From Rhodococcus sp. 105337 (GTDB lineage Bacteria > Actinomycetota > Actinomycetes > Mycobacteriales > Mycobacteriaceae): a stretch of 64,000 bases of DNA. The translations under genes and the position numbers were made by a program. This document shows positions 23,956 through 57,173 of the stretch, in pieces. The notes beneath the pieces were generated by a model that made no database searches, had not been told where the DNA came from, and worked only from the letters and a program-made list of their open reading frames with translations. Location of the stretch: contig NZ_JABAGQ010000001.1 in the NCBI RefSeq assembly GCF_012844225.1, positions 248,001 through 312,000 on the forward strand, read 5' to 3'. The stretch's first letter is position 1. Every line of letters begins with the position of its first letter.

Positions 23956-24500
23956 TGAAACGCGCCAACGTCGTCAGGCTGTTCGTGCTCGGCTGGATGA
24001 CCTTCGTGTGGGTGCTGCTGTGGGGCACCTTCAGTATCGCCAACATCCTCGGCGGACTGGTCGTGTCGATCATCGTCATGGTGCTGCTACCGCTCCCGCG
24101 CGTTCCCGTCGAGGGCAGAGTGCACCTGTTGTCGGCAGTCCGGCTGGGCATGTACATCTTCATCGAATCGATGCGCTCGACGGTGTCCGTGGGCTGGCTC
24201 GCGATCCGTCCGGCGCCACCTCCGGTGACCGGTGTCCTGCGCTGCCGTCTGACCATCAAGTCCGACCTGGTGCTCACACTGTGGACGGACATCATGAACA
24301 ACATCCCCGGCACGATGGTTCTCGAGATCGACCAGGTGCGCCGCATCGTGTACGTCCACGTCCTGGACGTGAGCACCGACCGCGCGGTGTCGGACTTCTA
24401 CCGTTCGGCACGACTGATCGAACGCCTCCTGATCAGGACGTTCGAGCGCGATTCCGAATGGCAGCCGAGCCCCTGGCGAAGCGGAACGGAGAGTATCTGA
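23952..24500 (+). CDS. mrpE: Mrp antiporter subunit E
   Basis: 182 residues of the MnhE family: N-terminal membrane segments (VRLFVLGWMTFVWVLLWG, GGLVVSIIVMVLLPLP), then the conserved soluble part with VEGRVHLLSAVRLGMYIFIE and PGTMVLEIDQVRRIVYVHVLDV. It is needed for assembly and stability of the Mrp complex. The ATG at 23952 overlaps mrpD by four bases and its TGA overlaps the ATG of mrpF by one base. Confidence 0.93.
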   Translation: MMKRANVVRLFVLGWMTFVWVLLWGTFSIANILGGLVVSIIVMVLLPLPRVPVEGRVHLLSAVRLGMYIFIESMRSTVSVGWLAIRPAPPPVTGVLRCRLTIKSDLVLTLWTDIMNNIPGTMVLEIDQVRRIVYVHVLDVSTDRAVSDFYRSARLIERLLIRTFERDSEWQPSPWRSGTESI

Positions 24501-24760
24501 TGACCGTGCTGCTGGTGATCTCCGGCGTGCTCTTGTTCGTGTCGGCGGTCCTGATCTGTTACCGGGCCTTCGGCGGCCCCAATTCGCTCGACCGGTTGGT
24601 CGGTGTCGACGCCCTGCTGGCGATCGCGATCTGCGGGCTCGCCGTCTGGGCGGTCTACAGTCGCGACACCACCGTCGCGCCCGCGATCGTCGCGCTGGCG
24701 CTCGTCGGATTCATCGGGTCGGTATCCATCGCCCGCTTCCGGGTGCGTGACGAACAATGA
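24500..24760 (+). CDS. mrpF: Mrp antiporter subunit F
   Basis: 86-residue protein with three membrane helices, the normal MrpF size. The conserved middle reads CYRAFGGPNSLDRLVGVDAL and includes the membrane Asp. A much longer frame from 23942 only overlaps mrpE and is rejected. The start overlaps the mrpE stop by one base and the stop overlaps mrpG by four, in keeping with the rest of the operon. Confidence 0.93.
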   Translation: MTVLLVISGVLLFVSAVLICYRAFGGPNSLDRLVGVDALLAIAICGLAVWAVYSRDTTVAPAIVALALVGFIGSVSIARFRVRDEQ

Positions 24761-25089
24761 GCACAGTTCTCGACCTGATCGGCCACATCCTGATTCTCAT
24801 CGGGGCAGTCGTCTCGTTCACCGCGGCGATCGGGGTGGTGCGCTTCCGCGACACCCTCTCGCGGATGCACCCCGCGACGAAGCCGCAGGTGATCGGGCTC
24901 CTCTTCGTGCTCGGCGGGGCGATGCTGATCCTGCGCGGGTCGGTGGATATCTGGATGATGGCGCTCGCCGGCATGTTCATGGTGCTTACCGCACCGGTGA
25001 TCGCGCACCGGGTGGGACGCATCGCCTACCGGGAACAGCTCGGCCGGGACGGACTGCTCGAAGAGGAGTTCCCCGGCGACGGAACCTGA
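24757..25089 (+). CDS. mrpG: Mrp antiporter subunit G
   Basis: 110 residues, last gene of the antiporter operon. The family core RFRDTLSRMHPATKPQVIGL lies between the first and second of three membrane helices. LTAPVIAHRVGRIAYRE marks the end of helix three. With this gene the complex is complete (A-B fusion, C, D, E, F, G), so the cell can use it for sodium or potassium extrusion and alkaline pH homeostasis. The convergent gene downstream ends 13 bases away, with no clear hairpin in the gap. Confidence 0.93.
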   Translation: MSTVLDLIGHILILIGAVVSFTAAIGVVRFRDTLSRMHPATKPQVIGLLFVLGGAMLILRGSVDIWMMALAGMFMVLTAPVIAHRVGRIAYREQLGRDGLLEEEFPGDGT

Positions 25090-25102
25090 CCGGCGGGGGC
25101 GT

Positions 25103-40680: not shown

Positions 40681-43938
<3,258 letters not shown>

Positions 43939-43957: not shown

Positions 43958-44626
43958 CTACCGCCGGCGGAAGGCACGCGTGACGAGCCAACCTTCCACC
44001 ATGCCTGCAAGAAAGACTGCGGTCACGAGCCCGTATTTGCGAGCCGGTGCAGGAATCATGGCCAGCGCATCGAATTCTCCCGCTACCGATCCACCTCCCG
44101 GAGCAGCGAACTGCTGTGGCGCACCAGTGGAATGGGATGTGTGTGTAACCGGCACGGACGCAGCCGCCGGCACCGCTTGGCCACCGGCCAGCATCGCGCC
44201 GAGGTTGACAGCGAACTGTTGCAGCACCTTGTTCGACACGGCCACGATCGCGCCCTTGCCGAACGAGACGATCTTGCCGCTGATCACCAGGTCGGTAACG
44301 AGTGTGAGCCGCGATCCGTTGCCGACCTGTTCTACGGTGATCGCTACCTCTGCCTCCGCGTCACCATTGCCGTGCGAGTCGGCACCCTTGGCCGCGAGCT
44401 TCAGCGTCCTTGCATCCCGGTCGATCTCGAGGAAACGAATGGTACCGGAGTAAGACGCACTGATCGGCCCGACCCTGACCTTGACTCCTCCGAGGAACGT
44501 GTCACCGTCCTTACCGGTGATCGCTGCGCCGGGTACACACGTCGCCACCTTTTCGACGTCATCGTTGATCAAACGAAATACGTCGTCGGCTGCCGCATCG
44601 ATGTCGAGTGAATTGGTCAATAACAC
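43958..44626 (-). CDS. CoxG-type SRPBCC protein with C-terminal membrane anchor
   Basis: 222 residues. Residues 1-145 form the CoxG/SRPBCC domain (ADDVFRLINDDVEKVATCVPGAA, GPISASYSGTIRF, GKGAIVAVSNKVLQQFAVNL). An Ala/Pro-rich linker and one C-terminal hydrophobic segment (YGLVTAVFLAGMVEGWLV) ending in RAFRRR follow. CoxG proteins tether molybdenum hydroxylases to the membrane and may deliver quinone, and the gene ends the coxM-coxL-coxS series, supporting that role. The GTG at 44626 follows ACGGAGAAATGCTGT. It is the first island gene, 19 bases from the convergent pknG stop. Confidence 0.85.
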   Translation of the reverse strand: MLLTNSLDIDAAADDVFRLINDDVEKVATCVPGAAITGKDGDTFLGGVKVRVGPISASYSGTIRFLEIDRDARTLKLAAKGADSHGNGDAEAEVAITVEQVGNGSRLTLVTDLVISGKIVSFGKGAIVAVSNKVLQQFAVNLGAMLAGGQAVPAAASVPVTHTSHSTGAPQQFAAPGGGSVAGEFDALAMIPAPARKYGLVTAVFLAGMVEGWLVTRAFRRR

Positions 44627-44651
44627 AGCATTTCTCCGTTCGGGTCTGACG

Positions 44652-45146
44652 TCAGGGCTTCAGGCAACCGGCGCAGCGACGCTGCTCGGCACAGGCATCG
44701 ATCGCCTCGACGATGGTTTGATATCCGGTGCAACGGCAGTAGTTCGACGCGACCACCTCGCGGATTTCGTCCTTGGTGGCGTCCGGATTCTCGGCGAGAT
44801 AGCCCTCGGCGAGCATCAGAAAGCCCGGTGTACAGAACCCGCACTGCAAACCGTGGTGGTCGGCGAACGCCTGTTGCAGGTCGGTCAGTATCCCGTCGCT
44901 GCCCAGCGACTCCACTGTGCGGACCTCGGAATTCTCTACCTGCGCAGCGAAGGTGAGGCACGCGCGGGCGGGCTTGCCGTCGATCAGGACTGTGCACGCG
45001 CCGCATACACCGTGCTCACATCCCACGTGCGTACCGGTCAGCCGCAGATCGTGTCTCAGCACGTCCACCAGCGTGCGGCGCGGTTCAGTGATCACCTCGT
45101 GATGCACACCGTTGACGGTCAATTCGAGCAGTTGCTTGCTGGTCAT
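44652..45146 (-). CDS. Molybdenum hydroxylase, small 2Fe-2S subunit
   Basis: 164 residues carrying both iron-sulfur clusters that pass electrons from the Mo site to FAD. The plant-ferredoxin cluster is Cys43, Cys48, Cys51 and Cys63 (GCEHGVCGACTVLIDG). The second is Cys102, Cys105, Cys137 and Cys139 (QCGFCTPG, NYCRCTGYQ). The C-terminus ends CAEQRRCAGCLKP, adding three cysteines not usual in the family. The ATG at 45146 overlaps the coxL-type stop by four bases. The family covers CO dehydrogenase, nicotinate dehydrogenase and similar enzymes; the context favours an N-heterocycle. Confidence 0.92.
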   Translation of the reverse strand: MTSKQLLELTVNGVHHEVITEPRRTLVDVLRHDLRLTGTHVGCEHGVCGACTVLIDGKPARACLTFAAQVENSEVRTVESLGSDGILTDLQQAFADHHGLQCGFCTPGFLMLAEGYLAENPDATKDEIREVVASNYCRCTGYQTIVEAIDACAEQRRCAGCLKP

Positions 45147-47524
45147 GCGATTCCCTTCGCCAAAGCGTGCTGAACGGCTACAGGTGTGATGGGCGTGTTG
45201 TTCAGTTCCACACCCGTGCTCCGCAAGCCGTCATTGACGGCATTGAGGACTGCGGCAGGTGCACCGATCGTCCCTCCCTCACCGGCACCCTTGGCACCGG
45301 ATTCGGTGAACAGACAGGGGGTTTCGAGATGGTGGATCCCGACCTCCGGTATCTCACAGGCTGTCGGTACCTTGTAGTCGATAAAGCTCGCGCACAACGG
45401 GTTCCCGTTGTCGTCGTACGAGACCTGCTCGAACAACGCACCCGCTATGCCCTGGGCGATCCCGCCACGGCACTGTCCTTCGACGACTTTCGGGTTGATG
45501 GCGACCCCGCAGTCCTCCACGCAGAAGTACCTGAGAATCTCCACTTTTCCGGTGCCCTCGTGCAGTTCCACCACGACACCGTGCGTCGCGTTGGAGAACG
45601 TTCCGTCGTTGAACACGTCGAAACTTGCAGTTGCGGACAATCCGGGATCGACGCCTTTGGGCAGCAACTGCGCGCGGAGATAGGCCACGTCCGCGATCTC
45701 CCGATAACTGACGAACTTCGAGTGGTCGTCGATCTGCCGGACGCGACCGGGGGCGAGTTCCACATTATCGCTGCGGGTCTCCAGCAGGTGCGCCGCGATG
45801 TCGCACAGTTTCCGGCCGAGTTTATCTGCCGCGACGGACACGGCGCTCCCGCCGATCGTGATCGAGCGCGAAGCGAACGAGCCGAACCCGTAGGTGATCC
45901 GGTCGGTATCGCCTTGCACGATCTTGACCTGCTCTACCTGGACACGGAGACGATCTGCGACGATCTGCGCCATCGTGGTCTCGTGACTCTGGCCATGGTT
46001 CATCGTGCCCGTGGTGGCTGACACTGTCCCGGAGACATCCATGCGGACCTCCGAGATGTCGAATCCGGGCACGACTTTCATCTTCCGTGCTGCGAATGCC
46101 GTGCTTCCATAACCAGTACGTTCACTGAAACACGAGTAGCCGATCCCGACGTGCCGGCCTTCCGCTTCCGCGCGTTCCCTGAACTCGTACCAGCCTTCGT
46201 CGCGAAGGACTTTCTCACACTCGTCGAGCGCCTCCAGGTAGGAGCCGGGGTCGTAGGTCACGTTGTTGATCCCCGTGTACGGGAACGCCGTGATCACGTT
46301 GCGACGCCTGATCTCCACCGCGTCGAGACCCAACTCCCGGGCAGCTCTCTCGAACAGCCGCTCCATGACCATCACATACTGGGGCCGGCTCACTCCGCGG
46401 TACGGCGCAGTGGGGGTCTTGTTGCTGAAGATCGACCGTCCCCGGACGCGGTAGGCAGGCACCTGGTACACACCGGGCATTTCGGCTGCGGCCATCAGCG
46501 GTTCGATGCCGGCGGTGAACGGGTAGCAGGAGTACGCACCCATGTCACAGATGACGTCGGCGTCGAGCCCGAGAATGTGCCCCTCCGCATCGAACGCCGC
46601 CCGCACGTCGTACTGCTGTTCACGCGCCAGGAACGACGCGGTCAGGGCGTCCTTGCGGTCCTCGATCCACTTCACAGGGCGCCGAAGTTTCAATGCCGCT
46701 GCTGCCACAGCGATTTCCTCGCGCCCCACCACACATTTCTGTCCGAAGCCCCCTCCCATGTCCGGAACGATCACGCGGACCTGCTGCTCCTGGAGGCCGA
46801 GACAGTGAGCTGTGACGGTGCGTACCTGGTGAGGTATCTGGGTGCAGATGTAGATGATCAACTGTTCGTCGCGATCATCCCAATGGGCGATGCATCCCCT
46901 GGTTTCGAGGGGAAGGGCGTTCTGCCTACCGGTACGTGACTGCACCGATACGACCGTGTGCGCGGCATCGAAGATCTCGTCGATGCCCTCGGTGGCGAAC
47001 ATCTGCACGTCGACGACCGTGTTGTTCACTGCTTCGTCGTGGACCAACGGAACGCCGGCCGAGAGGGCTTGGTCCGCGGACGTGATCGCGGTGACGGTCT
47101 CGTATGCCACGCGGGCTGCTTCGAGTCCGTCCTCGACCGTATAGGCGTCGTCGGCGACGACCAGAGCCAGAGGTTCACCGACGTACCGCACCCGGTCGCT
47201 GCTCAGAATCGGCATGTCGGTGGGAACGAACTCCTCGAGCGGCCGACTCAGCTCGGCCCGGATCGGTTTCAATGCGAGATCGGACGCGGTGAACACTGCA
47301 CGCACACCGTCGACGTCGAGGACATCCGACACGTCGAGCGCGGTCACCGAACCCGCAGCCACCGTGCTGCGGACGAACTGGGCGTGCAGCAGGCCGGGCA
47401 TGGAGATGTCGTCCACGAACCGGCCGCGGCCGGTGAGCAACCGCGGGTCTTCTCGACGTGCCACGGATCTTCCTACGAACTTCCCCGGGGTGCCCTCCCC
47501 ATGGCTGGGTGCAACAGTCGTCAT
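45143..47524 (-). CDS. Molybdenum hydroxylase, large Mo-cofactor subunit
   Basis: 793 residues with the catalytic molybdopterin site; water-derived oxygen is put onto a carbon next to nitrogen in substrates such as nicotinate. It begins VGRSVARREDPRLLTGRGRF as in the CoxL/xanthine dehydrogenase family. The loop near residues 372-378 is PYRGVSR, so the CO-dehydrogenase form I motif AYRCSFR is absent and CO oxidation is not indicated. The catalytic Glu lies in GAKGAGEGGTIGAP near residue 744, and GGGFGQKCVVGREE binds the cofactor. The ATG at 47524 is chosen; a longer frame is a shadow of the FAD subunit. Its start and stop overlap both neighbours by four bases. Confidence 0.92.
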   Translation of the reverse strand: MTTVAPSHGEGTPGKFVGRSVARREDPRLLTGRGRFVDDISMPGLLHAQFVRSTVAAGSVTALDVSDVLDVDGVRAVFTASDLALKPIRAELSRPLEEFVPTDMPILSSDRVRYVGEPLALVVADDAYTVEDGLEAARVAYETVTAITSADQALSAGVPLVHDEAVNNTVVDVQMFATEGIDEIFDAAHTVVSVQSRTGRQNALPLETRGCIAHWDDRDEQLIIYICTQIPHQVRTVTAHCLGLQEQQVRVIVPDMGGGFGQKCVVGREEIAVAAAALKLRRPVKWIEDRKDALTASFLAREQQYDVRAAFDAEGHILGLDADVICDMGAYSCYPFTAGIEPLMAAAEMPGVYQVPAYRVRGRSIFSNKTPTAPYRGVSRPQYVMVMERLFERAARELGLDAVEIRRRNVITAFPYTGINNVTYDPGSYLEALDECEKVLRDEGWYEFRERAEAEGRHVGIGYSCFSERTGYGSTAFAARKMKVVPGFDISEVRMDVSGTVSATTGTMNHGQSHETTMAQIVADRLRVQVEQVKIVQGDTDRITYGFGSFASRSITIGGSAVSVAADKLGRKLCDIAAHLLETRSDNVELAPGRVRQIDDHSKFVSYREIADVAYLRAQLLPKGVDPGLSATASFDVFNDGTFSNATHGVVVELHEGTGKVEILRYFCVEDCGVAINPKVVEGQCRGGIAQGIAGALFEQVSYDDNGNPLCASFIDYKVPTACEIPEVGIHHLETPCLFTESGAKGAGEGGTIGAPAAVLNAVNDGLRSTGVELNNTPITPVAVQHALAKGIA

Positions 47525-48372
47525 GACGAAACTCCTTGGGAGACCCGTGCGTCTCCGCACGCTCGGGCCACCAGCGTGCGGACGAGGGTGCGGCGATAAT
47601 CGGCGGTGTACGCGCCGTCGTCCTCGAGTTCGAGCGCGTCGGCGGCGGCCTCGGCGCAGTCGTCGAACGTGCCGCCGGCGGCCAGTACCCGTTCGGCCTC
47701 GGGTGATCGCACCGGCGTGGCCCCGACACCACCCAGTGCGACCCTCCCGCCCACGACCTCGACCCCGCGGAGATCCAGCGAAACGGCGGCTGCGACGATC
47801 GCGAAGTCGCCCTGCCGTTCCGCGAACTCCGTTACCGCGGCGTGGGGAGCCGCGTGCGGGAAGACGATCTCGACGATCATCTCGTCGAATGCCAATTCGG
47901 TGGAATAGAAACCGAAGAAGAACGAGCCCGCATCGATCGACCTCCGTCCGCGCACGCTTTCGACGACGATCACGGCGTCGAGAAGCACTGCGAGAAGGCA
48001 CCATTCCGCCGTCGCGTCGGCGTGCGCGATACTCCCGCCCACCGTGCCCCGCGTCCGGATCGGGTAGTGGCCGACCCATCGCATCGCTTCGCCGAGCACA
48101 GCGAAGTCCGCATCGAGGCCGCCCGACTCCACTTCGAGATGGGTGGTGAGCGCTCCGATGTGGAGCCCGTCGTCTTCCCTGCGAACGTAACGCAGCGCGT
48201 GAAGTGCACCGACGTCGACGAGGTGAGCCGGGCGGGCGAGACGGAAGTTCATCATGGCGACCAGTGACTGACCGCCCGCGATGATCTTCGCGTCCTCACC
48301 CAGATCGGAAAGCAACCGGAGTGCGCCCTGTACGTCGCGTGCGCGGTGATAGTCGAATCGTGCGGGCTTCAT
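47521..48372 (-). CDS. Molybdenum hydroxylase, FAD-binding medium subunit
   Basis: 283 residues with the two FAD motifs of CoxM-type subunits, IIAGGQSLVAMMNFRLA near residue 30 and TRGTVGGSIAHADATAEW near residue 107, and a C-terminal CO-dehydrogenase-flavoprotein-like domain (GGVGATPVRSPEAERVL). It hands electrons from the Fe-S subunit to NAD, quinone or another acceptor. The start overlaps the MFS gene stop by ATGA and the stop overlaps the large subunit by ATGA. The order M-L-S is intact. Confidence 0.92.
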   Translation of the reverse strand: MKPARFDYHRARDVQGALRLLSDLGEDAKIIAGGQSLVAMMNFRLARPAHLVDVGALHALRYVRREDDGLHIGALTTHLEVESGGLDADFAVLGEAMRWVGHYPIRTRGTVGGSIAHADATAEWCLLAVLLDAVIVVESVRGRRSIDAGSFFFGFYSTELAFDEMIVEIVFPHAAPHAAVTEFAERQGDFAIVAAAVSLDLRGVEVVGGRVALGGVGATPVRSPEAERVLAAGGTFDDCAEAAADALELEDDGAYTADYRRTLVRTLVARACGDARVSQGVSS

Positions 48373-49781
48373 CAGACCCGGACCTCTCCCCCGACAGCGT
48401 CGGGGGTTCCGCCGTCGATCGTGGAATCGTCTACGAGCGTGTCGAGTTCGCGGTTCTTTGTCTCGGGTGCGAAGTACGACATCCAGAGCACGGCGAACAC
48501 GACGAATGCGGTGACGATGCCGAAGGTCAGCGGCAGGCCGAGGATCGGCCACATCACCGATCCGAACAGCAACGGTGCGAAACCGGTAGCGACACGGCTG
48601 ACGGACGAGGCGTAGCCGAAGCCGGATGCGCGGATCGTCGTCGGATACAGCTCGGAGACGTAGCAGTACAGCACGGGAATCGTGAGCTGGATGACGAATC
48701 CGAAGATGCCGAGCCAGATCAGGGCGACGGACTGCACGTCCAGCATCATCGCGAACAGCACCAGCGCGGCACCGGCGACAGGTCCGGACAACCCGATGAC
48801 CCATTTACGTCCGAACACCTCGACCAAAAGCGCGGAGGTGAGCACGCCGACGATTCCGACGCCGGTCATCAGTGTCGTGCCGGCGAAGGCCGCAAACTCC
48901 CCGTAGCCTTCGGCCCGCAGGATCGAGGGCATCCAACTGAGCGCGGCATAGTAGAGCAGCATGATCGAGACGAACAACATCCATGCGGTGGCCGTGATGC
49001 CGGGGCTGTAGGTCCACACGGACTTGAGCTGCGTCCAGCCGGCCCTCAGGCCGCCGGGACCGCGCGATTCGGTTTCCGGAACGATGACGTACTCGACCAC
49101 CGGCGCACCGGTTCGCTCGACCATGTCGTCGATGACTGCACGAGCCTCGGCCTCGCGGCCGACCTTGGCGAGATAGATCGGTGACTCCGGAATGCCGCGT
49201 CGTACCCAGAAGAGCAGCAGTGCGGGCAGAACCATGAACAGCAACATGTATCGCCAGCGCACGTCGCCGTCGATCGGCACGAGGAGCGTAGCGACCACGC
49301 CGCACACGGTGGCGCCGATGGGCCACCACACGTCCATAGCCGAGAGGACCTTGCCGCGAATCTTTCGGGGCGAGAACTCGCTGACCAGTGCGTAGTCGAC
49401 GGGGATACAACCACCGAGGCCGAAGCCGGCGAGGAAGCGGAGCAGAATGAAGACTTCGAAGTTCGGCGAGAAAGCGCCGAGCACCGAGAACAGCGCGAAG
49501 ATCAGCAGCGTCAGGGAGAAGGCACGCTTGCGGCCCATCCGGTCGGCGAGAGTGCCCCACACCACGGCACCGACCGCCATGCCCACCAGGTTTCCGGTGG
49601 CGACCAGGCCCCGCTCGGCGGTGGTCAGATCCCAGTAGGTGCCGAGCAGCGGCGTCAAGAACCCGTTCAGTGCGACATCCCAGGCATCGAACATGTACCC
49701 GAGACCGCCGATGATGAAGATTTTCCCTTGCACTCCCCACTTCCAGGGGAGTTCCTGTACTACTTGGTCACCAGTTTTCAT
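48372..49781 (-). CDS. MFS transporter, sugar-porter/NiaP-like subfamily
   Basis: 469 residues with 12 predicted membrane helices. DAWDVALNGFLTPLLGTYW in helix 1, GTLADRMGRKRAFSLTL between helices 2 and 3, and YCYVSELYPTTIRASGFGY in the second half are typical of the SV2/NiaP-type carriers for small aromatic acids and niacin. In this cluster it is the obvious uptake system for the pathway substrate; nicotinate or a related carboxylate is inferred. The ATG at 49781 follows GGAGGGTTGCG. It is translationally coupled to the medium subunit of the hydroxylase. Confidence 0.88.
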   Translation of the reverse strand: MKTGDQVVQELPWKWGVQGKIFIIGGLGYMFDAWDVALNGFLTPLLGTYWDLTTAERGLVATGNLVGMAVGAVVWGTLADRMGRKRAFSLTLLIFALFSVLGAFSPNFEVFILLRFLAGFGLGGCIPVDYALVSEFSPRKIRGKVLSAMDVWWPIGATVCGVVATLLVPIDGDVRWRYMLLFMVLPALLLFWVRRGIPESPIYLAKVGREAEARAVIDDMVERTGAPVVEYVIVPETESRGPGGLRAGWTQLKSVWTYSPGITATAWMLFVSIMLLYYAALSWMPSILRAEGYGEFAAFAGTTLMTGVGIVGVLTSALLVEVFGRKWVIGLSGPVAGAALVLFAMMLDVQSVALIWLGIFGFVIQLTIPVLYCYVSELYPTTIRASGFGYASSVSRVATGFAPLLFGSVMWPILGLPLTFGIVTAFVVFAVLWMSYFAPETKNRELDTLVDDSTIDGGTPDAVGGEVRV

Positions 49782-49825
49782 CGCAACCCTCCGGCGCGGA
49801 TATGAGTGCGCTGCATCCGATTTCG

Positions 49826-51085
49826 CTATCGGACGAACGCGTAGTGGAATTTCTCGTCGTCGCTGTCGTCGAGCGGTGTGCCGCTCCAGAGCCAGTCGTA
49901 CGAGATATCGGATTCCCCAGAGAACGACGCCAGTGTCGCGTCCCGCAGCTGTTGCTCGGGTCCGTCGGGTAGGTGATAGAAGGTCTTGTTCTGCAGGCTT
50001 GCATCCTGCACCATGCGAGCGTGCCGCGCGCGACGAGATACGTAGCGCGCCAACGCTTCATCGATTCCGGCGACGGTTACCCTGCCGAGTTCTTCCGCGA
50101 GGACTGCGGCGTCCTCCATGGCTTGCGAGGCGCCCTGGGCCTGGTAGGGCAGCATGGCATGGCACGCGTCGCCCAGGAGGGCGACCCGGCCTTCGACCCA
50201 TCTCGGATCGGGCCTGCGGTAGTACAGGGCCTGGCACAGCACGTTCTCGTCGGCCTTGGCCATCATCGCGAGCGCGCGGTCGTCCCAGCCGGGGAAGGCC
50301 GCCATCAGCTCTTCGGGCCCCACCAGCCTGGGTCCTCCGTCGCGCACCTCGTCGGTGCACGGGACGAGAGCGACGATGTTGAGGTACTCCCCGTCCCTGA
50401 TCATGTAGTGGACGAGGTGACGGTCGGGGCCGTACCAGATCGTGCTCTGGTAACGGTCCACGAGCCAGCGGGTTGCGGGATCTTTGACGATGCGGTCTCC
50501 GGGAACCAGTGCACGGAAGGCCATTTCGCCCGAGAAGACCAGCGTGTCCGGTAGGCCGATGACATCGCGCACGGTCGAGCGGATGCCGTCCGCGCCGATG
50601 ACCACATCGGCCTCGTATCGTCCGCCGTTCGACGTGACTGCCACCGGGCGCGAGGGATTCGTGCGGTCGACGTCGACCACCTGTGCGTCGGTCACGAACT
50701 CCACGATGGGACCGGGGCCCTCGGGATCGAGGCACTTGACATGGATCGCCGAATGCAAATCCGCTCGATGGTAGTGCCAGTACGGCGCGTTGAACTTCTC
50801 CTTGCAGTACTCACCGAGCGAGGTGAGCGCGACAACTTTGCCGTTCTCCCATCGGCGTCGCACCTGATCCATGGGCTCGGTCTTGATGGCCTCGAGTTGG
50901 CGTCGCATTCCGAGGCCGATGAGAATCCGGCTCGCGTTCGGGGCGGTCTGGATTCCCGCGCCGACTTCGCCCAGTTCGGCCGCCGCTTCCAGGACGGTGA
51001 CCTGCAGGCCCCGATGACGCAGCGCGAGTGCCGCCGTGAGTCCGCCGAGCCCTCCGCCTGCGATCACTACTTGGATGGGTGCCAT
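49826..51085 (-). CDS. FAD-dependent aromatic monooxygenase, 6-hydroxynicotinate 3-monooxygenase (NicC)-like
   Basis: 419-residue single-component group A flavin monooxygenase. FAD motifs are VVIAGGGLGGLTAALALR with LEAAAELGEVGAGI, ADVVIGADGIRSTVR, and GRVALLGDACHAMLPYQAQG. AGIQTAPNASRILIGLG and HYHRADLHSAI resemble salicylate hydroxylase and NicC. NicC performs decarboxylative hydroxylation of 6-hydroxynicotinate to 2,5-dihydroxypyridine, exactly the substrate of the dioxygenase encoded one base upstream. That match supports the NicC role, although salicylate-type activity cannot be excluded by sequence alone. The ATG at 51085 is chosen at MAPIQVVIAGG. Confidence 0.82.
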   Translation of the reverse strand: MAPIQVVIAGGGLGGLTAALALRHRGLQVTVLEAAAELGEVGAGIQTAPNASRILIGLGMRRQLEAIKTEPMDQVRRRWENGKVVALTSLGEYCKEKFNAPYWHYHRADLHSAIHVKCLDPEGPGPIVEFVTDAQVVDVDRTNPSRPVAVTSNGGRYEADVVIGADGIRSTVRDVIGLPDTLVFSGEMAFRALVPGDRIVKDPATRWLVDRYQSTIWYGPDRHLVHYMIRDGEYLNIVALVPCTDEVRDGGPRLVGPEELMAAFPGWDDRALAMMAKADENVLCQALYYRRPDPRWVEGRVALLGDACHAMLPYQAQGASQAMEDAAVLAEELGRVTVAGIDEALARYVSRRARHARMVQDASLQNKTFYHLPDGPEQQLRDATLASFSGESDISYDWLWSGTPLDDSDDEKFHYAFVR

Positions 51086-51086
51086 G

Positions 51087-52118
51087 TCAGTTCTCCACCA
51101 ATCGGCCTTCGGTGACGACATCGATGCCGTCGATGGACACGGTGCACGAGCGCATTCCGATGTCGAGATGCGCGTAGGAGTCACGCCCGAGAACTGGGTG
51201 AGGTCCGGTCGACCAGAGGAAGCTCCCGGCGAACGCCCGGGCATCCATGCCCATGATGTCGTCCTTGCCGTACATCGCTGCGGCGAACCAGTCGCCCGAC
51301 TTCATCAGTCCCCAGCCCATGTGCGAGAGGTACCGGGCCCATTTGTCGTTGGAGTCGGCGAAGAACATGTTCAGCAATGTTGCTTCCGCTCCGCCGGTCA
51401 CCTCGTCGATGTGGCCGTTCGTCACGGTCAGAGTCGTGGGCTCGCGAACGTATTCCTTGAAGGGCAACAGAATGTCGCCTTCGGACAGGACGATCCGGCC
51501 GTTGGAGATCTCGGGCCAGCACAGCACCATGGTGCTGGGCCAGTGATCCCATCGTCCCTTGTCGTCCGCGAAGCCGACCTGGAACTCGGGCTGCGAATTG
51601 CGCAGTTCCACTGTGAGATCGGTGCCGGCCTCGTTGGTGATGCGCATGATCGATCCCTGCCGGACCAGATCGACGCCCGCTTGTACGCGCTCCTTGTCGC
51701 CTTCCTGGGGCATATTGCGGATCAGCACGTCCGGTGCGTCGCAGACGAAGATGATGCGGGTGCCCGACGCAAGGATCTCCTGCTGGATGGGTGCGTGGAT
51801 GAACCCCTCGCTCGTGAGGTCGACGACGAGATCGGCTGCCTTGAGCAGGTTCTGCGTCGCCACGCTGTTCATCACGGAGACCAGGCCGGGGCCGGCACCG
51901 GTGTGGGTGCTGGGCATCGGCGCGGCGCTACCACCCGGAACGGTCGCCGACAGCACCTGAGCGCCGAGACTCTGGGCGGCACCGAATGCGGCGGCAACAT
52001 AGTCGCCGCGACTGGCCGGTTCCGCCAGGATCACCACTTGTTCCCCGGGCCGGACCTTGCACAGTTCGAGCTGGCGCGTGAACGCGCGCAGCAGATCGGC
52101 TGATCTCAGATCGAACAT
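51087..52118 (-). CDS. nicX: 2,5-dihydroxypyridine 5,6-dioxygenase (NicX family)
   Basis: 343-residue non-haem iron dioxygenase with an M29 aminopeptidase-like fold that opens 2,5-dihydroxypyridine to N-formylmaleamate. The family blocks GRWDHWPS, EGDILLPFKEYVRE, SHMGWGLM, MGMDARAFAGSFLWSTGP and AHLDIGMR are all present. His266, His317 and Asp319 line up in position with the iron ligands reported for Pseudomonas putida NicX (His265, His318, Asp320). Length is the same as the family. It is the most diagnostic gene of the island. Its stop is one base from the monooxygenase start and its start is one base from the nitrilase stop, so all three are co-translated. Confidence 0.93.
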   Translation of the reverse strand: MFDLRSADLLRAFTRQLELCKVRPGEQVVILAEPASRGDYVAAAFGAAQSLGAQVLSATVPGGSAAPMPSTHTGAGPGLVSVMNSVATQNLLKAADLVVDLTSEGFIHAPIQQEILASGTRIIFVCDAPDVLIRNMPQEGDKERVQAGVDLVRQGSIMRITNEAGTDLTVELRNSQPEFQVGFADDKGRWDHWPSTMVLCWPEISNGRIVLSEGDILLPFKEYVREPTTLTVTNGHIDEVTGGAEATLLNMFFADSNDKWARYLSHMGWGLMKSGDWFAAAMYGKDDIMGMDARAFAGSFLWSTGPHPVLGRDSYAHLDIGMRSCTVSIDGIDVVTEGRLVEN

Positions 52119-52119
52119 C

Positions 52120-52995
52120 TCAGTTCCTCTCCAGTGTCTTCTCGGTGGTGCTCGTGTGCTCGGTTATTCCGCCGAGACGTAGCAGGTCCTGCAGGTACGG
52201 GACTTCCCGGCGGGCTTCGGAAAGCGAATTGCGGGCGACGACTGCCGCGACGGCACCGACGCTCTCGTCCAACTCGGCGATGGTGCGGCCGCGCGGGCCG
52301 ACGATGACGCTGTGCCCCGCGAACCGGGGGCCACCGCCCGTGCGGCCGGTGAGACCGGCCGCGGCGACGACGACACCGTTCTCCAGCGCCCGCGATCGCG
52401 TCAGCAGCTTCCACACGTGCAGGCGGGGATGACCGAACGCCGAGGGGACTGCGATGATGTCGGCTCCGCGGCGCGCCAGATCCCGCACCGTTTCGGGAAA
52501 TCCTGCTTCGTAGCAGATGACCACGCCGATTGTTCCGAACGGTGTGGGCACGAGGAGTCCGCTCTGCGCACCCGGGGTGAACACCGAATTTTCCTGCCCC
52601 CAGAGGAATCGCTTGTGCCCGAGGGCGAGCAGTCCGTCCGGACCGACCACGAGGGAACTGTCCGTGACGGTTCCTTCCGGGGTGCGGTGCGGGAGCGCGG
52701 TAACGAGGACGGTGCCTGTTTGAGCGGCGAGGTCGGCCAGTGCGTCGGACGTCCTGCCGGGCACCTCTTCGGCGATGGACCGGATGTCGCCCTCGAGGTC
52801 GTACCCGGTGGCGAAGAACTCCGGGAGAACGATGATGTCCGAGCCCTCGGCGGCGAGGCGGCGAACGGTTTCGGCCACCATGTCGATGTTGCGTTGCCAC
52901 TGACCGGAGCGCGATTCCGTCTGCACCACTGCGATATTGATGGTATCCACGTCGGAGGGCGCTTCGGGTGCGTCCAGCTTGCCCGCCGCGGTCAC
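52120..52995 (-). CDS. Carbon-nitrogen hydrolase (nitrilase superfamily), candidate N-formylmaleamate hydrolase
   Basis: 291 residues with the nitrilase-superfamily triad: Glu59 (IVLPEFFATGYD), Lys128 (LGHKRFLWGQ) and Cys161 (GVVICYEAGFPE). Overall layout resembles N-carbamoyl or omega-amidase branches rather than true nitrilases. In known dihydroxypyridine pathways the ring-opened N-formylmaleamate is deformylated by an alpha/beta hydrolase (NicD) and deaminated by an isochorismatase-like amidase (NicF); neither is encoded in the island. This enzyme, adjacent to nicX, is the natural candidate to act on that product. The GTG at 52995 overlaps the flavin reductase stop (GTGA). The exact bond cut is unknown. 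Confidence 0.85.
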   Translation of the reverse strand: MTAAGKLDAPEAPSDVDTINIAVVQTESRSGQWQRNIDMVAETVRRLAAEGSDIIVLPEFFATGYDLEGDIRSIAEEVPGRTSDALADLAAQTGTVLVTALPHRTPEGTVTDSSLVVGPDGLLALGHKRFLWGQENSVFTPGAQSGLLVPTPFGTIGVVICYEAGFPETVRDLARRGADIIAVPSAFGHPRLHVWKLLTRSRALENGVVVAAAGLTGRTGGGPRFAGHSVIVGPRGRTIAELDESVGAVAAVVARNSLSEARREVPYLQDLLRLGGITEHTSTTEKTLERN

Positions 52996-53624
52996 TGCGC
53001 GACCCTGTTCATGCTCGTTGTGTAGAACGGCCCGGCGAGACGGCCGAGAAAGGGGTGTTCCAGGGTATCCACGTGCAGGCTCTCCGACAGTAGACCCGGC
53101 CGGGACGTGACGGTCGTGACGGTCCCGAGTACGAGGGTGTCGGTGCCGAGGTCTATTTCGCGGAGCAGTTCGCACTCCAGCGAGATGAGCGATTCGAGTA
53201 CCGATGGTGCCGAAACGGAGTGTGACGGGATCGGTGTCGCGCCCGAGAGGGTGAACTCGTCGACGTCCGGTTCGACGGTGGCGAACGATGCGGTGACGGC
53301 TTCCACTGTGTCGGCGGCGGGGATGTTGACGACGAAATTGCCGGTCTCGCGGACGTTGACCAGGGTGTCCTTCGGCTCGCCCGGTGACCCGATGCGTTCG
53401 CCGATGGAGATCACCAGGGTCGCGGGGTTTCGTGAGGCGACGGTGAAGAAGCTGAACGGTGCGAGATTCCGAGTCCCGTCGGCGGAGACGGTAGAGACCC
53501 ACGCGATCGGCCGGGGTTGCACCGCGCACGACAGCAACTTGTACACGTCGCCTTCGGTCATGGCACCGATGTCGTAGCGGGCCCGATCCGCGACCGATGC
53601 GCGGTCACCGCTCTGGGATGTCAT
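52992..53624 (-). CDS. Flavin reductase family protein (DIM6/NTAB type)
   Basis: 210 residues with the FMN-binding split barrel of NAD(P)H:flavin reductases: AVQPRPIAWVSTVSADGTRNLAPFSFF, NPATLVISIG, KDTLVNVRETGNFVVNIP. Such proteins supply reduced flavin to two-component monooxygenases. The island monooxygenase looks single-component and no second oxygenase is present, so the partner is unclear; it might instead reduce a substrate or use another gene product. It is the first gene of the nine-gene operon. The ATG at 53624 follows CGGAGAGGCTTCACGT. The promoter and LacI-type operators lie immediately upstream. Confidence 0.85.
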   Translation of the reverse strand: MTSQSGDRASVADRARYDIGAMTEGDVYKLLSCAVQPRPIAWVSTVSADGTRNLAPFSFFTVASRNPATLVISIGERIGSPGEPKDTLVNVRETGNFVVNIPAADTVEAVTASFATVEPDVDEFTLSGATPIPSHSVSAPSVLESLISLECELLREIDLGTDTLVLGTVTTVTSRPGLLSESLHVDTLEHPFLGRLAGPFYTTSMNRVAQ

Positions 53625-53649
53625 ACGTGAAGCCTCTCCGTCGAGATGC

Positions 53650-53673
53650 GCAATTGGTTGTGCAACCGATTGC
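53650..53673. promoter_or_regulatory. Tandem LacI-type operator pair at the catabolic operon promoter
   Basis: Two abutting 12-bp palindromic boxes: GCAATTGGTTGT (53650-53661) and GCAACCGATTGC (53662-53673), each GCAA-N4-TTGY. On the minus strand they begin 9 bases after the -10 box, covering the transcription start and early leader. The same design recurs before amiF. The LacI protein encoded next door is the expected repressor. Confidence 0.7.
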
Positions 53674-53682
53674 GTCAGTCGA

Positions 53683-53712
53683 AAGATAGATGCAGCCCGG
53701 ACTAATTGTCGA
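53683..53712 (-). promoter_or_regulatory. Candidate promoter of the nine-gene catabolic operon
   Basis: Reading the minus strand: TCGACA (53712-53707), an 18-base spacer and TATCTT (53688-53683), a good fit to the housekeeping sigma factor. It directs transcription into the flavin reductase gene, and the tandem operator starts 9 bases downstream, positioned to block initiation or escape. Confidence 0.55.
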
Positions 53713-53789
53713 GGCTTCATCCCAGAATCCGGAAGCTTTCACATTGCCGTTACGTGCGCGTCACATTCCGCGCCCGGACGCCCGGCCCT

Positions 53790-54824
53790 TCACCGAATGC
53801 CGAATCCGATCCGGGCGGTGTCCACGCCGGATCCCGCCGGGCGGGGCGGCCCGTAACCTTCGCTCGTTCCGTCGACGATCTGCACGGCGTCTTCCCACGG
53901 GACCCGATAGCGGCCGGCCACGAGGTCACTCATGTAGGTGTAAGGGCAATCCGTCGCCCCGCCTGCGAGAGCGGTGTATCCACGGTGGCCCAGCTGGTAG
54001 ATGTTGTTCTCCACGCCCCACTCCCGTCGTGCAGCATCCGCCCGCGCAGGCTCGATGGTCGCGGTGACGACACGGTCGGGAGTGGAGTCACCGCGCTCGA
54101 CGATCGTTCCCTCGAAGTCGCAGACCATCGCCTCACCCATCGAGGGGATGCCGTTACCGTCGTGTCCCGCGAGACACACCGACGCGGTGTACGCAAGGTT
54201 CTGGAAGGCATTGGCTTCGTTGGTGATCCGCCAGGACTGCTTCAGAGGGAACTTGTACCCCGCGGTCCGCAGCAAGACGTTGGCTCCTCGGTAACTCGCC
54301 TCGCGCGCAACCTCGGGAAACATACCGTCGTGACAGATCAGCAGCGACAGCACCGAACCCTTCGGTCCCCGGCACACCGGCACACCGATGTCGCCGGGCT
54401 CCCACGGCTCCTTCGGGGTCCACGGATGCAGTTTTCGCACGTAAAGCGCGATTTCACCGTCGCTGTCGACGATGATCCCCGAGTTGAACGGCGCGCCGTT
54501 CGGATTGCTCTCCATCACGCTGAAGCATCCCCATACCGCGGCCTCCTTGCAGGCGAGGCGCAACCGCTCGACCTGGGGACCGTCCAGGTCGCACATGAGT
54601 TCGTCCCGGGCCCATCCGGATTTCCGGAGGCCGTGCAGCGAGTACTCGGGAAACACGACGAGGTCGAGGGCGGAGAACCCTTCCTTGGCGTCGCGCAGTG
54701 CCGCGACCACCCGATCGGTGGCTGCGTCGACGTCGGCCATTGTTTCGACCAGCGGAACCTGCTGCTGCACCAGGCCCAAAGTCAGGGAAGATGGGGACGG
54801 ATTGAGGCCTCCGAGACCGGTCAT
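53790..54824 (-). CDS. amiF: Formamidase, AmiF type (nitrilase superfamily)
   Basis: 344 residues, the length of AmiF/AmiE amidases. The triad is Glu60 (VVFPEYSLHG), Lys131 (YVRKLHPW) and Cys164 (LLICHDGMFPE), nearly the positions in Helicobacter pylori AmiF. TPKEPWEPGDIGVPVC, VENNIYQLGHRGY and TYMSDLVAGRYRVPWED match the formamidase branch more than the acetamide-preferring AmiE. It should split formamide into formate and ammonia in the cytosol. The ATG at 54824 follows AAAGGAGTACAC. It is its own transcription unit with a LacI operator pair like that of the main operon, which ties formamide to the pathway. Confidence 0.88.
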   Translation of the reverse strand: MTGLGGLNPSPSSLTLGLVQQQVPLVETMADVDAATDRVVAALRDAKEGFSALDLVVFPEYSLHGLRKSGWARDELMCDLDGPQVERLRLACKEAAVWGCFSVMESNPNGAPFNSGIIVDSDGEIALYVRKLHPWTPKEPWEPGDIGVPVCRGPKGSVLSLLICHDGMFPEVAREASYRGANVLLRTAGYKFPLKQSWRITNEANAFQNLAYTASVCLAGHDGNGIPSMGEAMVCDFEGTIVERGDSTPDRVVTATIEPARADAARREWGVENNIYQLGHRGYTALAGGATDCPYTYMSDLVAGRYRVPWEDAVQIVDGTSEGYGPPRPAGSGVDTARIGFGIR

Positions 54825-54842
54825 GTGTACTCCTTTGCCGGC

Positions 54843-54866
54843 GCAACGTGTTGCGCAATCGATTGC
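54843..54866. promoter_or_regulatory. Tandem LacI-type operator pair between amiF and lacI
   Basis: Two abutting perfect 12-bp palindromes, GCAACGTGTTGC (54843-54854) and GCAATCGATTGC (54855-54866). On the minus strand they start 10 bases after a TAAGCT box (54882-54877) and end 18 bases before the amiF start codon. They also lie upstream of the divergent lacI gene, so autoregulation is possible. Confidence 0.75.
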
Positions 54867-54932
54867 ACGCGGTGCTAGCTTAGGGGCCGAGCAAGATCAC
54901 GGCAGCACTGGCGATCGGCGGAGGGAACGACC

Positions 54933-55949
54933 GTGGTGAAAAGGACGTCGGGAAACGTGACGTTGAAAACGGTCGCCGAAGCTGCGGGCGTACACGTTTC
55001 GACGGTTTCTCGTGCGTTGCGGCGCGTGGCAGCAGGTCCCGGGTCCGCGACCGAAAGCGACCTCCGATTGTCCCGTCTCGCTCAGGAGCTGGGGTACGTA
55101 CCCAACCCCAACGCAGCAAGCCTGACGACGAAGAAGTCGACGGCGTTCGGTGTCCTCGTCCCTCACCTCACCGACATCGTCCTCTCCGCCATGTACGACG
55201 CGATCGAAGACACCGCCAACCGGGCAGGGTACGAAACCTTCGTCGCGAACACCCATGACGATGCTGCCCGGCAACGCCGACGGATCGATCTGCTCCTCGG
55301 ACGCAACGTCGACGGCCTCATCTTCGGAGACGCTCGGCTCGACAGCGCAAACCTGGACGAACTCTCCCGGCGCGGAGTGGCTTTCGTTCTCGTCAGCCGA
55401 AGATATCCCGGAGCGCTGTCGGCGACGTGTGACGACCACCTCGGCGGCCGTCTCGTCGGGGAGCACCTCGCCCGCCTCGGTCATACCCGGGTAGGGATCA
55501 TCTCCGGACCGAGGTGGGCCAGCACAGGCATCGATCGACTGGAAGGTTGTATTGCGGCACTGAACGATGCCGGAATCGACGTGCCGGCCCCCTACGTGCG
55601 CGAAGAGGGATTCGATCCTGCTGCGGGAAGGCGCGGAGCCGAAGCGTTGCTCTCGTTACCCGAGCCACCGACCGCGATCTTCGCCGCGAACGACTTCAGC
55701 GCGATCGGCGTGCTCGGAGTCCTGCGGGAGCGCTCGCTCCACCCGGGACAGGACATCGCAGTCGTCGGCTACAACGACATCTCCATCTGCAGCGAACTGA
55801 CCGTACCTCTCACGACAGTGCACAGTCCCCATCGGGAGATCGGCATGCGCGCGGCCGAGATGCTGCTCGCAGTCACCCACGGATTACCGGCGTCGTCGGT
55901 TGCATTGACTCCTCGGCTCGTCGTTCGGCAATCCACCGTCCCCGCCTAG
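54933..55949 (+). CDS. LacI family transcriptional repressor of the catabolic island
   Basis: 338 residues. The N-terminal helix-turn-helix and hinge are complete (TLKTVAEAAGVHVSTVSRAL, then SRLAQELGYVPNPNAASL). A periplasmic-binding-protein-like effector domain follows (FGVLVPHLTDIVLSAMYDAIE, RLGHTRVGIISGP, IFAANDFSAIGVLGVLRE, VVGYNDISICSELTVPLTTV). The effector is presumably the substrate or an intermediate. Known nicotinate operons use MarR- or TetR-type regulators, so LacI control is unusual here. The GTG at 54933 follows CGGAGGGAACGACC. The gene is divergent from amiF and ends 15 bases before the convergent ackA. Confidence 0.9.
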   Translation: MVKRTSGNVTLKTVAEAAGVHVSTVSRALRRVAAGPGSATESDLRLSRLAQELGYVPNPNAASLTTKKSTAFGVLVPHLTDIVLSAMYDAIEDTANRAGYETFVANTHDDAARQRRRIDLLLGRNVDGLIFGDARLDSANLDELSRRGVAFVLVSRRYPGALSATCDDHLGGRLVGEHLARLGHTRVGIISGPRWASTGIDRLEGCIAALNDAGIDVPAPYVREEGFDPAAGRRGAEALLSLPEPPTAIFAANDFSAIGVLGVLRERSLHPGQDIAVVGYNDISICSELTVPLTTVHSPHREIGMRAAEMLLAVTHGLPASSVALTPRLVVRQSTVPA

Positions 55950-55964
55950 CCGGTGTACCGGCCG

Positions 55965-57173
55965 CTACGCGAATTCCGCAGCGGCGCGGGCGATCGCGAG
56001 TTCCTCGTTCGTGGGGATGACCAAGACCTCGACCTCCGACTCGTCTGCGGAGATCCGCCGCTCCCCCTTACCGGGGGCTGCGTTGCGTTCGAGGTCGACG
56101 ACGATGCCGAGCCGTTCCAGGCCCGCGAGCGCGTCACGCCGGACATCGACATTGTTCTCGCCTACGCCGGCGGTGAAGATGATCTGATCGGCGCCACCCA
56201 ACTCGAAGACGTACGCACCGATGTACTTCCGCAACCGGTGCACATAGACGTCGTACGCGATCTTCGCGTCTTCGTCGCCTTCGTCGATGAGGTTCAACAG
56301 CGCGCGGAAGTCGTTGACACCGGAGAGACCGCGGAGTCCGGAGCGCCGGTTGAGCAGGTCGTCGATCGCGTCGACCTTCATTCCCGCGACCCGATTGAGG
56401 TGCATGACGACGCCGGCGTCGATATCGCCCGTTCGCGTACCCATGACGAGGCCCTCGAGAGGAGTCAGCCCCATCGACGTATCGATGGGACGGCCACCTT
56501 CGATGGCCGACGCGGATGCGCCGTTGCCGAGATGCAGCACGATCTGGTTCAGTTCGGCCTGGTCGCGACCGGTGAACGCTGCCGCGCGCTGTGAGACGTA
56601 TTCGTGCGACGTCCCGTGGAATCCGTATCTCCGGATGTCGTGCTCGCGAGCGATGTTTCGCTCGAGTGCGTACGTTGCGGCTGCCGCGGGCAGCGCGTGG
56701 AAGAACGCGGTGTCGAAGACCGCGACGTGCGGGATGTCGGGCAGTTCCTCGCGCGCGACCTCCATCCCGATGGCGTTCGCCGGATTGTGCAGGGGCGCGA
56801 GGATGGACAACTCGGCCACGGCCTTCACCACGTCGTCGTCGACGAGGGCAGGTTCGTGGAACACTGTGCCGCCGTGAACAACCCGATGCCCGACGGCTGC
56901 GATACCGGCTTCCTGCAGCGGCCTGCCCAGCGTCTCGAGCATGTCCAGCACCGTGCGTAAGCCGGCCCGATGGTCGCGGATCTCGCCCACCCGCTCCTCG
57001 GTTCCGGTGGTGTGGTGGAAGATGATCCGCCCCTCCGGCTCGCCGATGCGCTCGATGAGTCCGTGCGCTACAGCTTCACCGCTTTCGGGGTGAATGAGCT
57101 GGAACTTGATCGACGACGAACCCGAATTGAGTACCAATACGGTCCCCTCGGTCAACGAGGTGGATGTGCTCAC
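55965..57173 (-). CDS. ackA: Acetate kinase
   Basis: 402 residues; interconverts acetyl phosphate plus ADP with acetate plus ATP. Signatures are [87 protein letters not shown] and the C-terminal FTAGVGENN. The GTG at 57173 overlaps the pta stop (GTGA), so the two enzymes are coupled, as in Rv0408-Rv0409. The extra upstream frame is a shadow of pta. In M. tuberculosis this pair is close to pknG; here the 12-kb island lies between. Confidence 0.95.

Follow-up and report, generated by a model that had tools for sequence, protein, structure and literature searches.

A probable nicotinate catabolic operon of Rhodococcus sp. 105337 with an apparently exchanged lower half

In the pathway described for nicotinate, a deformylase, an amidase and an isomerase convert N-formylmaleamate to maleamate, maleate and fumarate (PMC6403243). 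The closest described systems, nic of Pseudomonas putida and naa of Alcaligenes P156 (nicotinamide), were compared with an 11-gene island located at positions 43958-55949 of a 64,000-nucleotide stretch (the window) from Rhodococcus sp. 105337 (contig NZ_JABAGQ010000001.1; genome of 4.46 Mb). The island has in common with them the NicX iron ligands and, as predicted, 6-hydroxynicotinate, 2,5-dihydroxypyridine and a NicX-type ring opening. It differs in having a three-subunit molybdenum (Mo) hydroxylase with a flavin adenine dinucleotide (FAD) subunit and a CoxG protein, and a regulator of the LacI type, whereas NicR of the nic pathway is presumably of the MarR type. It differs also in its lower half: no homologue of the deformylase NicD, the amidase NicF or the isomerase NicE was found in the window at E 1e-3, a search that for NicD-type hydrolases did not extend to the rest of the genome, and three other proteins are present instead. 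Judged by sequence, the upper half is of the known nicotinate type and the lower half appears to be new.

The island comprises ten genes on the minus strand, in the order coxG, moS, moL, moM, MFS (major facilitator superfamily) carrier, FAD monooxygenase, nicX, nitB, flavR and amiF by position, and a divergent lacI on the plus strand; the names nitB and flavR were coined in this analysis. An earlier note on this DNA had listed two nitrilase-fold hydrolases and a flavin reductase without giving them a role. These are the unusual part of the island, standing where NicD, NicF and NicE would be expected. The lower half, with nicX, consists of:

51087..52118, minus strand: nicX, predicted 2,5-dihydroxypyridine 5,6-dioxygenase of a divergent actinobacterial subfamily (7cn3, 228 bits)
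52120..52995, minus strand: nitB, nitrilase-superfamily amidase (Pfam CN_hydrolase)
52992..53624, minus strand: flavR, flavin mononucleotide (FMN) split-barrel flavoprotein (Pfam Flavin_Reduct; best folds 3bpk, 1eje and NbaA 4z85)
53790..54824, minus strand: amiF, predicted formamidase (NCBIfam formamidase equivalog, 496.3 bits, cut-off 406)

Two lower halves beside the same upper half

A NicX relative was present in 25 of 397 sampled genomes of the order, the window's genome included. Among 20 NicX regions fetched, 11 carried the monooxygenase and the M and L subunits of the Mo-hydroxylase at no less than 55% identity beside a NicX that was only 34-37% identical, and 10 of these 11 also had the carrier. 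The three of them that were examined (L043, L047 and L053), as well as an Embleya locus (L073), contained alpha/beta-hydrolase, isochorismatase and Amdase genes.

Scanning a collection of 84,980 species genomes for the NicX subfamily with two peptide patterns yielded 77 loci. Loci with at least one NicD-, NicF- or NicE-like gene were called type A and loci with flavR type B, the genes being scored at identities of at least 38% (type A) or at least 40% (type B) over more than 90 aligned query residues. By this definition 49 loci were type A and 18 type B, none had both sets, and 10 had neither; in nine of these, nicX was no more than 10 kb from the end of a contig. All three NicD/NicF/NicE-like genes were found in 35 type-A loci, two in 11 and one in 3. 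The type-B loci had flavR, nitB and amiF (13 loci), flavR and nitB (3) or flavR alone (2), so that flavR was present in 18/18, nitB in 16/18 and amiF in 13/18. At E 1e-6, no match to any of the three type-A genes was obtained at the 18 type-B loci, and the type-A loci gave a single match to the type-B genes, a flavR homologue of 39% identity in L149, located ~6 kb away on the other strand. The type-B hosts were eight Rhodococcus/Rhodococcoides, one Nocardia, two Gordonia, three Mycolicibacterium/Mycobacterium, one Amycolatopsis, one Streptomyces and two metagenome-assembled genomes (MAGs).

The same upper module accompanies both types, with the Mo-hydroxylase L subunit at 60% identity or more in 43/49 type-A and 10/18 type-B loci. 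Type-A clusters of actinobacteria, such as those of Streptomyces, Janibacter and Embleya (L084, L127 and L073), have a NicX of the same subfamily (63-79% across the 49 loci), share the island's Mo-hydroxylase in the 43 loci mentioned (moL 64-76% identical, beside NicX) and have the MFS carrier in 41/49 (59-70%). Their lower half, in contrast, is NicD-, NicF- and NicE-like, with no nitB or amiF match, the one distant flavR and no lacI above 31%. The swap of lower halves is well supported as a genomic observation. Because the two sets are mutually exclusive beside the same upper module, flavR-nitB-amiF probably replaces NicD/NicE/NicF.

On a NicX tree of 80 rows, made by a quick method, with several long branches and with one of the 77 loci (L150, short) omitted, the A/B label required 3 changes, at least two of them forced by the starred branches, compared with a mean of ~17 for shuffled labels. 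The earliest branches were type B, as rooted on three distant NicX rows. As read from this tree, the exchange of lower halves occurred more than once.

The NicE family (PF17645) was absent from 7/18 type-B genomes (L077-L080, L093, L134 and L144), although its absence from L144, a 2.6 Mb MAG, weighs little. A further 6/18 had only distant members (33% or less, or no match), and a NicE-like gene was found in 4/4 type-A controls; this comparison covered 34 loci, without three additional Amdase matches of G811, one of the type-A controls. Type-B genomes without NicE would need another answer to the cis double bond of the ring-opening product, and flavR is the candidate.

The upper half and the probable substrate

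The upper half consists of:

43958..44626, minus strand: coxG, SRPBCC/CoxG protein and probable accessory of the Mo-hydroxylase (Pfam COXG, 53.5 bits against a cut-off of 22.2)
44652..45146, minus strand: moS, [2Fe-2S] subunit of the Mo-hydroxylase (Pfam Fer2, Fer2_2)
45143..47524, minus strand: moL, molybdopterin subunit, probable nicotinate 6-hydroxylase (best PDB match 1t3q, 531 bits)
47521..48372, minus strand: moM, FAD subunit of the Mo-hydroxylase (FAD_binding_5, CO_deh_flav_C)
48372..49781, minus strand: MFS carrier of the aromatic acid:H+ symporter type, probable nicotinate uptake (TIGR00895, 227.5 bits, below the cut-off of 418.55)
49826..51085, minus strand: FAD monooxygenase (FAD_binding_3), probable decarboxylating 6-hydroxynicotinate 3-hydroxylase (PDB matches)

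The genes named in the earlier note are all present, and their families were supported by Pfam and NCBIfam (L and the MFS carrier scanned in NCBIfam only, LacI in Pfam) or, for NicX, by the PDB match; coxG is an island gene that the note had left unnamed. The S, M and L subunits of the Mo-hydroxylase are all present. In the PDB, moL scored highest against quinoline 2-oxidoreductase (1t3q, 531 bits), followed by carbon monoxide dehydrogenases (429 and 413 bits), and an enzyme that hydroxylates beside the ring nitrogen is therefore likely.

The monooxygenase scored 235.6 bits against 8gsm, 235.1 against 8x38, 229.6 against 8r2t and 224.7 against tropone 2-monooxygenase (8rqh), compared with 162.8 and 160.5 against NicC (8uiq and 5eow). 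The 8x38 structure is a decarboxylative vanillate 1-hydroxylase, and 8gsm, deposited as '4-hydroxybenzoate decarboxylase', is presumably a decarboxylating hydroxylase of 4-hydroxybenzoate. The description 'NicC-like' in the earlier note thus holds for the fold family and is loose beyond it, at 235 bits for two decarboxylating hydroxylases versus 163 for NicC. Decarboxylating hydroxylases act where a carboxylate is para to a hydroxyl, a geometry that 6-hydroxynicotinate has. Of the substrates that had been proposed, nicotinate and 6-hydroxynicotinate are accordingly favoured and 3-hydroxypyridine is disfavoured, since the two structures that score highest against the monooxygenase are those of decarboxylating hydroxylases. 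Against this argument, tropone 2-monooxygenase, which is not known to decarboxylate, also outscores NicC. Taken together, the substrate is very likely nicotinate or 6-hydroxynicotinate.

The island nicX matched P. putida NicX (7cn3) with 228 bits and E 1.6e-66; no Pfam or NCBIfam model matched it. In P. putida numbering, the iron ligands are H265, S302, H318 and D320, with H105 and H189 as further residues, and Glu177 binds N1 and O1 of the substrate (PMC7910607). Alignment with this enzyme bore out the iron ligands His266, His317 and Asp319 that had been assigned to the island protein and added the fourth, Ser303; His265, Ser302, His318, Asp320, His105, His189 and Arg293 of P. putida NicX are all kept, while E177 is replaced by Gln180, E308 by Val309 and L104 by Ile107. 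The Glu177 equivalent is Gln in 78/78 subfamily rows, regardless of the lower half, and the substitution is therefore unlinked to the exchange. More distant NicX sequences (33 rows) carry Glu at this position in 24 cases, Gln in 5 and Ser in 4.

From homology and context, the carrier would import nicotinate, the Mo-hydroxylase would convert it to 6-hydroxynicotinate, the monooxygenase would yield 2,5-dihydroxypyridine and CO2, and NicX would open the ring to N-formylmaleamate. The sequence of intermediates in the earlier note thus stands as the best reading of the upper half, mostly from relatives; what it had not captured is that the lower half is unusual.

Proposed reactions of the lower half and their alternatives

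We lean slightly towards a nicotinate catabolic operon with an exchanged lower half, in which flavR, nitB and amiF replace NicE, NicD and NicF and act in an order that passes through formamide. In this order, flavR would first deal with the cis double bond left in the open chain, either isomerising it to give a fumaryl compound or reducing it to give a succinyl one; nitB would then hydrolyse the C4-acyl-N bond to give fumarate or succinate and formamide, and AmiF would split formamide into formate and ammonia. The substrate, the order of steps, formamide and the flavR reaction are what we infer. That flavR acts on the double bond, as isomerase or reductase, seems evenly balanced, and formamide as a true intermediate falls a little short of that. 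A wider proposal is more tentative: a second actinobacterial lower pathway for 2,5-dihydroxypyridine, with the flavR step first, then release of formamide by nitB and its cleavage by AmiF, which would bypass maleamate and maleate. Its genes would be swapped as a unit with NicD-NicF-NicE and be shared by several upper pathways for pyridines.

The island AmiF matched Bacillus cereus AmiF (5g3o) with 373 bits, and the formamidase equivalog cut-off was passed by all six proteins scanned, namely the window's AmiF and 5 of 13 type-B AmiF. The C-E-E-K tetrad is invariant in 14 rows, with Glu60, Lys131, Glu139, Cys164 and Asp166 kept. Like AmiF of Helicobacter pylori and B. cereus, it retains the catalytic residues and scores above the cut-off; unlike them, it is linked to a pyridine operon and has an altered loop after Tyr190. 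Based on the equivalog-level match, we hypothesize that it hydrolyses formamide. For nitB, the catalytic Glu-Lys-Glu-Cys is invariant in 14/14 rows (13/16 type-B rows and the window), and the predicted structure (predicted local distance difference test score, pLDDT, 85) is closest to an amidase holding glutaramide (6ypa) and to mouse Nit2. L140, L145 and L146 have nitB and NicX without any AmiF in the genome, so that nitB could act straight after NicX; action of nitB on the NicX product chain, with AmiF only clearing formamide, would fit these three genomes. Matches to the FmdA-type formamidase (PF03069) were found in the genomes of L140, L143, L145 and L146 and not in that of L144; none was among the genes scanned at the L140, L143 and L145 loci, the genome matches being unmapped relative to the NicX contigs.

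The predicted structure of flavR is a flavin split barrel (pLDDT 90), closest to 3bpk, 1eje and the 2-nitrobenzoate nitroreductase NbaA (4z85); the alignment comprised 15/18 type-B rows and the window. The upper half beside it is of the Mo-hydroxylase type in 10/18 type-B loci. L133 keeps flavR with an upper half of UbiD, a UbiX-like flavoprotein and a monooxygenase, and the island homologues in L134 are arranged alike. In L141 and L143 flavR is kept beside HpaB with its own separate reductase, in L144 beside HpaB, and in L145 beside a cytochrome P450 and an FAD monooxygenase. It therefore does not appear tied to one oxygenase and seems to be part of the lower half. A role of flavR as reductase partner of an island oxygenase was rejected, as no reduced-flavin-dependent oxygenase is present there and HpaB in L141 and L143 has its own reductase.

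Several observations weigh against the formamide order. The AmiF loop after Tyr190 is mosaic, with Lys191 and Arg199 present in all 14 type-B rows but in neither of the two solved formamidases, and could point to a substrate that bears a carboxylate, such as N-formylmaleamate, instead of formamide. AmiF is missing from 5/18 type-B loci and nitB from 2/18, L143 and L144 lacking both; L143 has an alpha/beta hydrolase adjoining flavR and an amidase-family gene, which implies that different hydrolases can take their place. Elsewhere in the window's genome there are two isochorismatases (not compared with NicF) and a pair of distant Amdase paralogues, of which the closer is 27% identical and one keeps both aligned cysteines, and because of these NicE-family paralogues maleate could still be an intermediate in it; a NicE-like gene (52-59%) also lies away from the NicX locus in 5/18 type-B genomes. 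With Glu177 replaced by Gln, even the ring-opening substrate is not certain. Finally, the 77 comprise only loci that match one of two peptide patterns, and drafts and the use of one genome per species limit claims of absence.

The main rival keeps the usual order with new enzymes: AmiF would be the N-formylmaleamate deformylase (NicD), nitB the maleamate amidase (NicF), the isomerase would be unlinked, flavR would have a side role and no formamide would arise. The invariant Lys191 and Arg199, which could bind a carboxylate, speak for it, as do some NicE-family gene in 11/18 type-B genomes and the nitB fold near Nit2, which we take to be an omega-amidase of succinamate-like acids. We nevertheless consider it unlikely, with NicE lacking from the other seven genomes, AmiF above the formamidase cut-off wherever scanned, and nitB and NicX kept in L140, L145 and L146 with neither AmiF in the genome nor a NicD-like gene at the locus. 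About equally unlikely, to our mind, is that flavR is a helper that returns Fe(III)-NicX to Fe(II) or reduces a quinoid pigment formed from 2,5-dihydroxypyridine. Its Flavin_Reduct fold and NbaA-type relatives would suit such a role, it stays with NicX where nitB and amiF are absent (L143 and L144), and a pigment arising from 2,5-dihydroxypyridine, as well as a nicotine-blue reductase of nicotine catabolism, have been reported (PMC9304392, PMC6214936); however, 48/49 type-A loci have the same NicX subfamily without a flavR match, and L149 only the distant one.

Finally, the operon might serve a different carboxylated pyridine, or a related N-heterocycle, whose breakdown likewise leads to a NicX substrate. 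The Gln at the Glu177 position throughout the subfamily, the same lower half behind UbiD, HpaB or P450 modules elsewhere and a monooxygenase that is not closest to NicC agree with this, but it appears improbable given that the quinoline-2-oxidoreductase-like Mo-hydroxylase and the decarboxylating-hydroxylase-like monooxygenase match nicotinate and 6-hydroxynicotinate, and that type-A relatives combine the same upper module with NicD/E/F-like genes.

A 2024 review gives histidine and cyanide as sources of microbial formamide, and 'nicotin' appears in it in one nitrilase reference (PMC10781810). No formamide route, or role of the island genes, in nicotinate breakdown was found among the matches listed in the open-licence literature, which is weak evidence of novelty; the sole paper among them with both 'formamidase' and 'dihydroxypyridine' concerns a kynurenine-formamidase-like cyclase. 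If the formamide order is true, three protein subfamilies without known role gain one at once, formamide has a source beyond those named in that review, and the lower half offers an amidase whose substrates are N-formyl amides of C4 acids, together with a split-barrel flavoenzyme for which a carbon-carbon double bond is the target. Annotation of these genes as stray formamidases and flavin reductases would end, and predictors that require NicD/E/F would stop overlooking probable nicotinate users in Rhodococcus, Gordonia and Nocardia, and likewise probable users of other pyridines in Mycolicibacterium.

Regulator, genomic site and related clusters

The remaining island features and the flanking housekeeping genes, which lie outside it, are:

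54852..54869: operator-like palindrome TGCGCAATCGATTGCACG between lacI and amiF
54933..55949, plus strand: lacI, LacI-family regulator, divergent from the operon (Pfam LacI, Peripla_BP)
41653..43938, plus strand: pknG
55965..57173, minus strand: ackA

A lacI of 52-96% identity is present in 16/18 type-B loci. The core GCAAnCGnTTGC was found in 8/8 divergent lacI-amiF gaps read (the window's genome and seven relatives in Rhodococcus, Nocardia and Gordonia), and the motif is fully palindromic only in the window's genome and R. coprophilus. In L133, L134, L140 and L141, the sequence read around lacI, nicX or flavR showed no such palindrome. The 18-base palindrome has one match in the window; at 3 mismatches, 12/100 shuffles also matched, and the case for an operator-like motif therefore rests on conservation and position. 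The operon is probably under the divergent LacI-type regulator. Intergenic spacing is mostly 1-4 bp overlaps or 1-44 bp gaps, apart from 165 bp between flavR and amiF, and together with the conserved motif this fits a single regulon.

The island fills the gap between pknG and ackA, named here as in the earlier note; that note presumed the two to be neighbours in M. tuberculosis as well. The edge distances given there, 19 bp to pknG and 15 bp to ackA, are exact. No integrase turned up in the gene list or in the NCBIfam and Pfam scans of this interval, and no clear repeat scar was found, the longest exact repeat common to both edges being 10 bp (140 bp tested each). Comparison of this gap across 18 genomes of the genus, as had been proposed, showed an empty site in 12, where 21-148 bp separate the aligned portions of the two flanking genes, and the island in two, the window's genome and R. 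coprophilus (G398), which holds the whole island at the same site. Two others had a gap of 1.13-1.16 kb, one a broken alignment (554 bp) and one no pknG within 1.5 kb of ackA. An AmiF search of these genomes gave three matches: the window's genome, R. coprophilus (95%) and a distant relative in G402 (33%). A recent mobile element was rejected, there being no clear scar and the same site being occupied in R. coprophilus. Neither pknG nor ackA was found near the 17 other type-B loci within the sequence stretch available for each, which places the cluster elsewhere in those genomes. Searches for plasmid relatives returned 3 partial matches to flavR (E 1e-20) and 1 distant match to nitB (E 1e-30).

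Between 47.0 and 52.5 kb the DNA is 91-96% identical to that of R. coprophilus, compared with mostly 77-92% on either side, and this higher identity suggests a later exchange of the central part of the island between the two species.

A 2-hydroxypyridine-type cluster on a plasmid of R. pyridinivorans YF3 (L074), presumably hpo-like, has a NicX homologue (40%), a carbon-nitrogen hydrolase and an Asp/Glu racemase-family protein in common with such loci. It differs in that its upper half is of the Rieske dioxygenase kind and that it has an additional dioxygenase as well as an isochorismatase; no amiF is annotated in the stretch. The NicX homologue (L074:11989-13002), in this Rieske dioxygenase/carbon-nitrogen hydrolase cluster of a strain from a quinoline-degrading bioreactor, is annotated 'hypothetical protein', and a flavR-like gene (45% over 62%) lies ~8 kb from it.

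Elsewhere in the window's genome, tandem Amdase-family genes (G000:C10, ~23500-25100; L069:8514-10054) adjoin GntR, acyl-CoA dehydrogenase and acetoacetate decarboxylase-like genes; of the cysteines aligned with NicE, both are present in the second gene and one is missing from the first. Two further Mo-hydroxylase large subunits lie close together at G000:C2:44425-49809, one with a coxG-like gene; PF02738 matches in this genome number six in all, one with an in-frame TAG.

Among the type-B loci, nicX of Gordonia desulfuricans is followed by an ammonium transporter gene and HpaB/HpaC-type oxygenase genes (L141:5727-9225), and in Amycolatopsis pretoriensis (L145:4340-12333), whose genome lacks AmiF, nicX, flavR and nitB stand beside an FAD monooxygenase, a P450, a short-chain dehydrogenase/reductase and an AllG-domain gene. 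In Mycolicibacterium vaccae (L133:7784-20298) the lower half is combined with an ATP-binding cassette importer, a monooxygenase of 51% identity and a pair of UbiD/UbiX-like decarboxylase genes, and the substrate of this cluster is probably another carboxylated pyridine. A second AmiF relative (63%) is found in M. vaccae at G803:C10:27449-28459 (L208), in a frame with one TGA.

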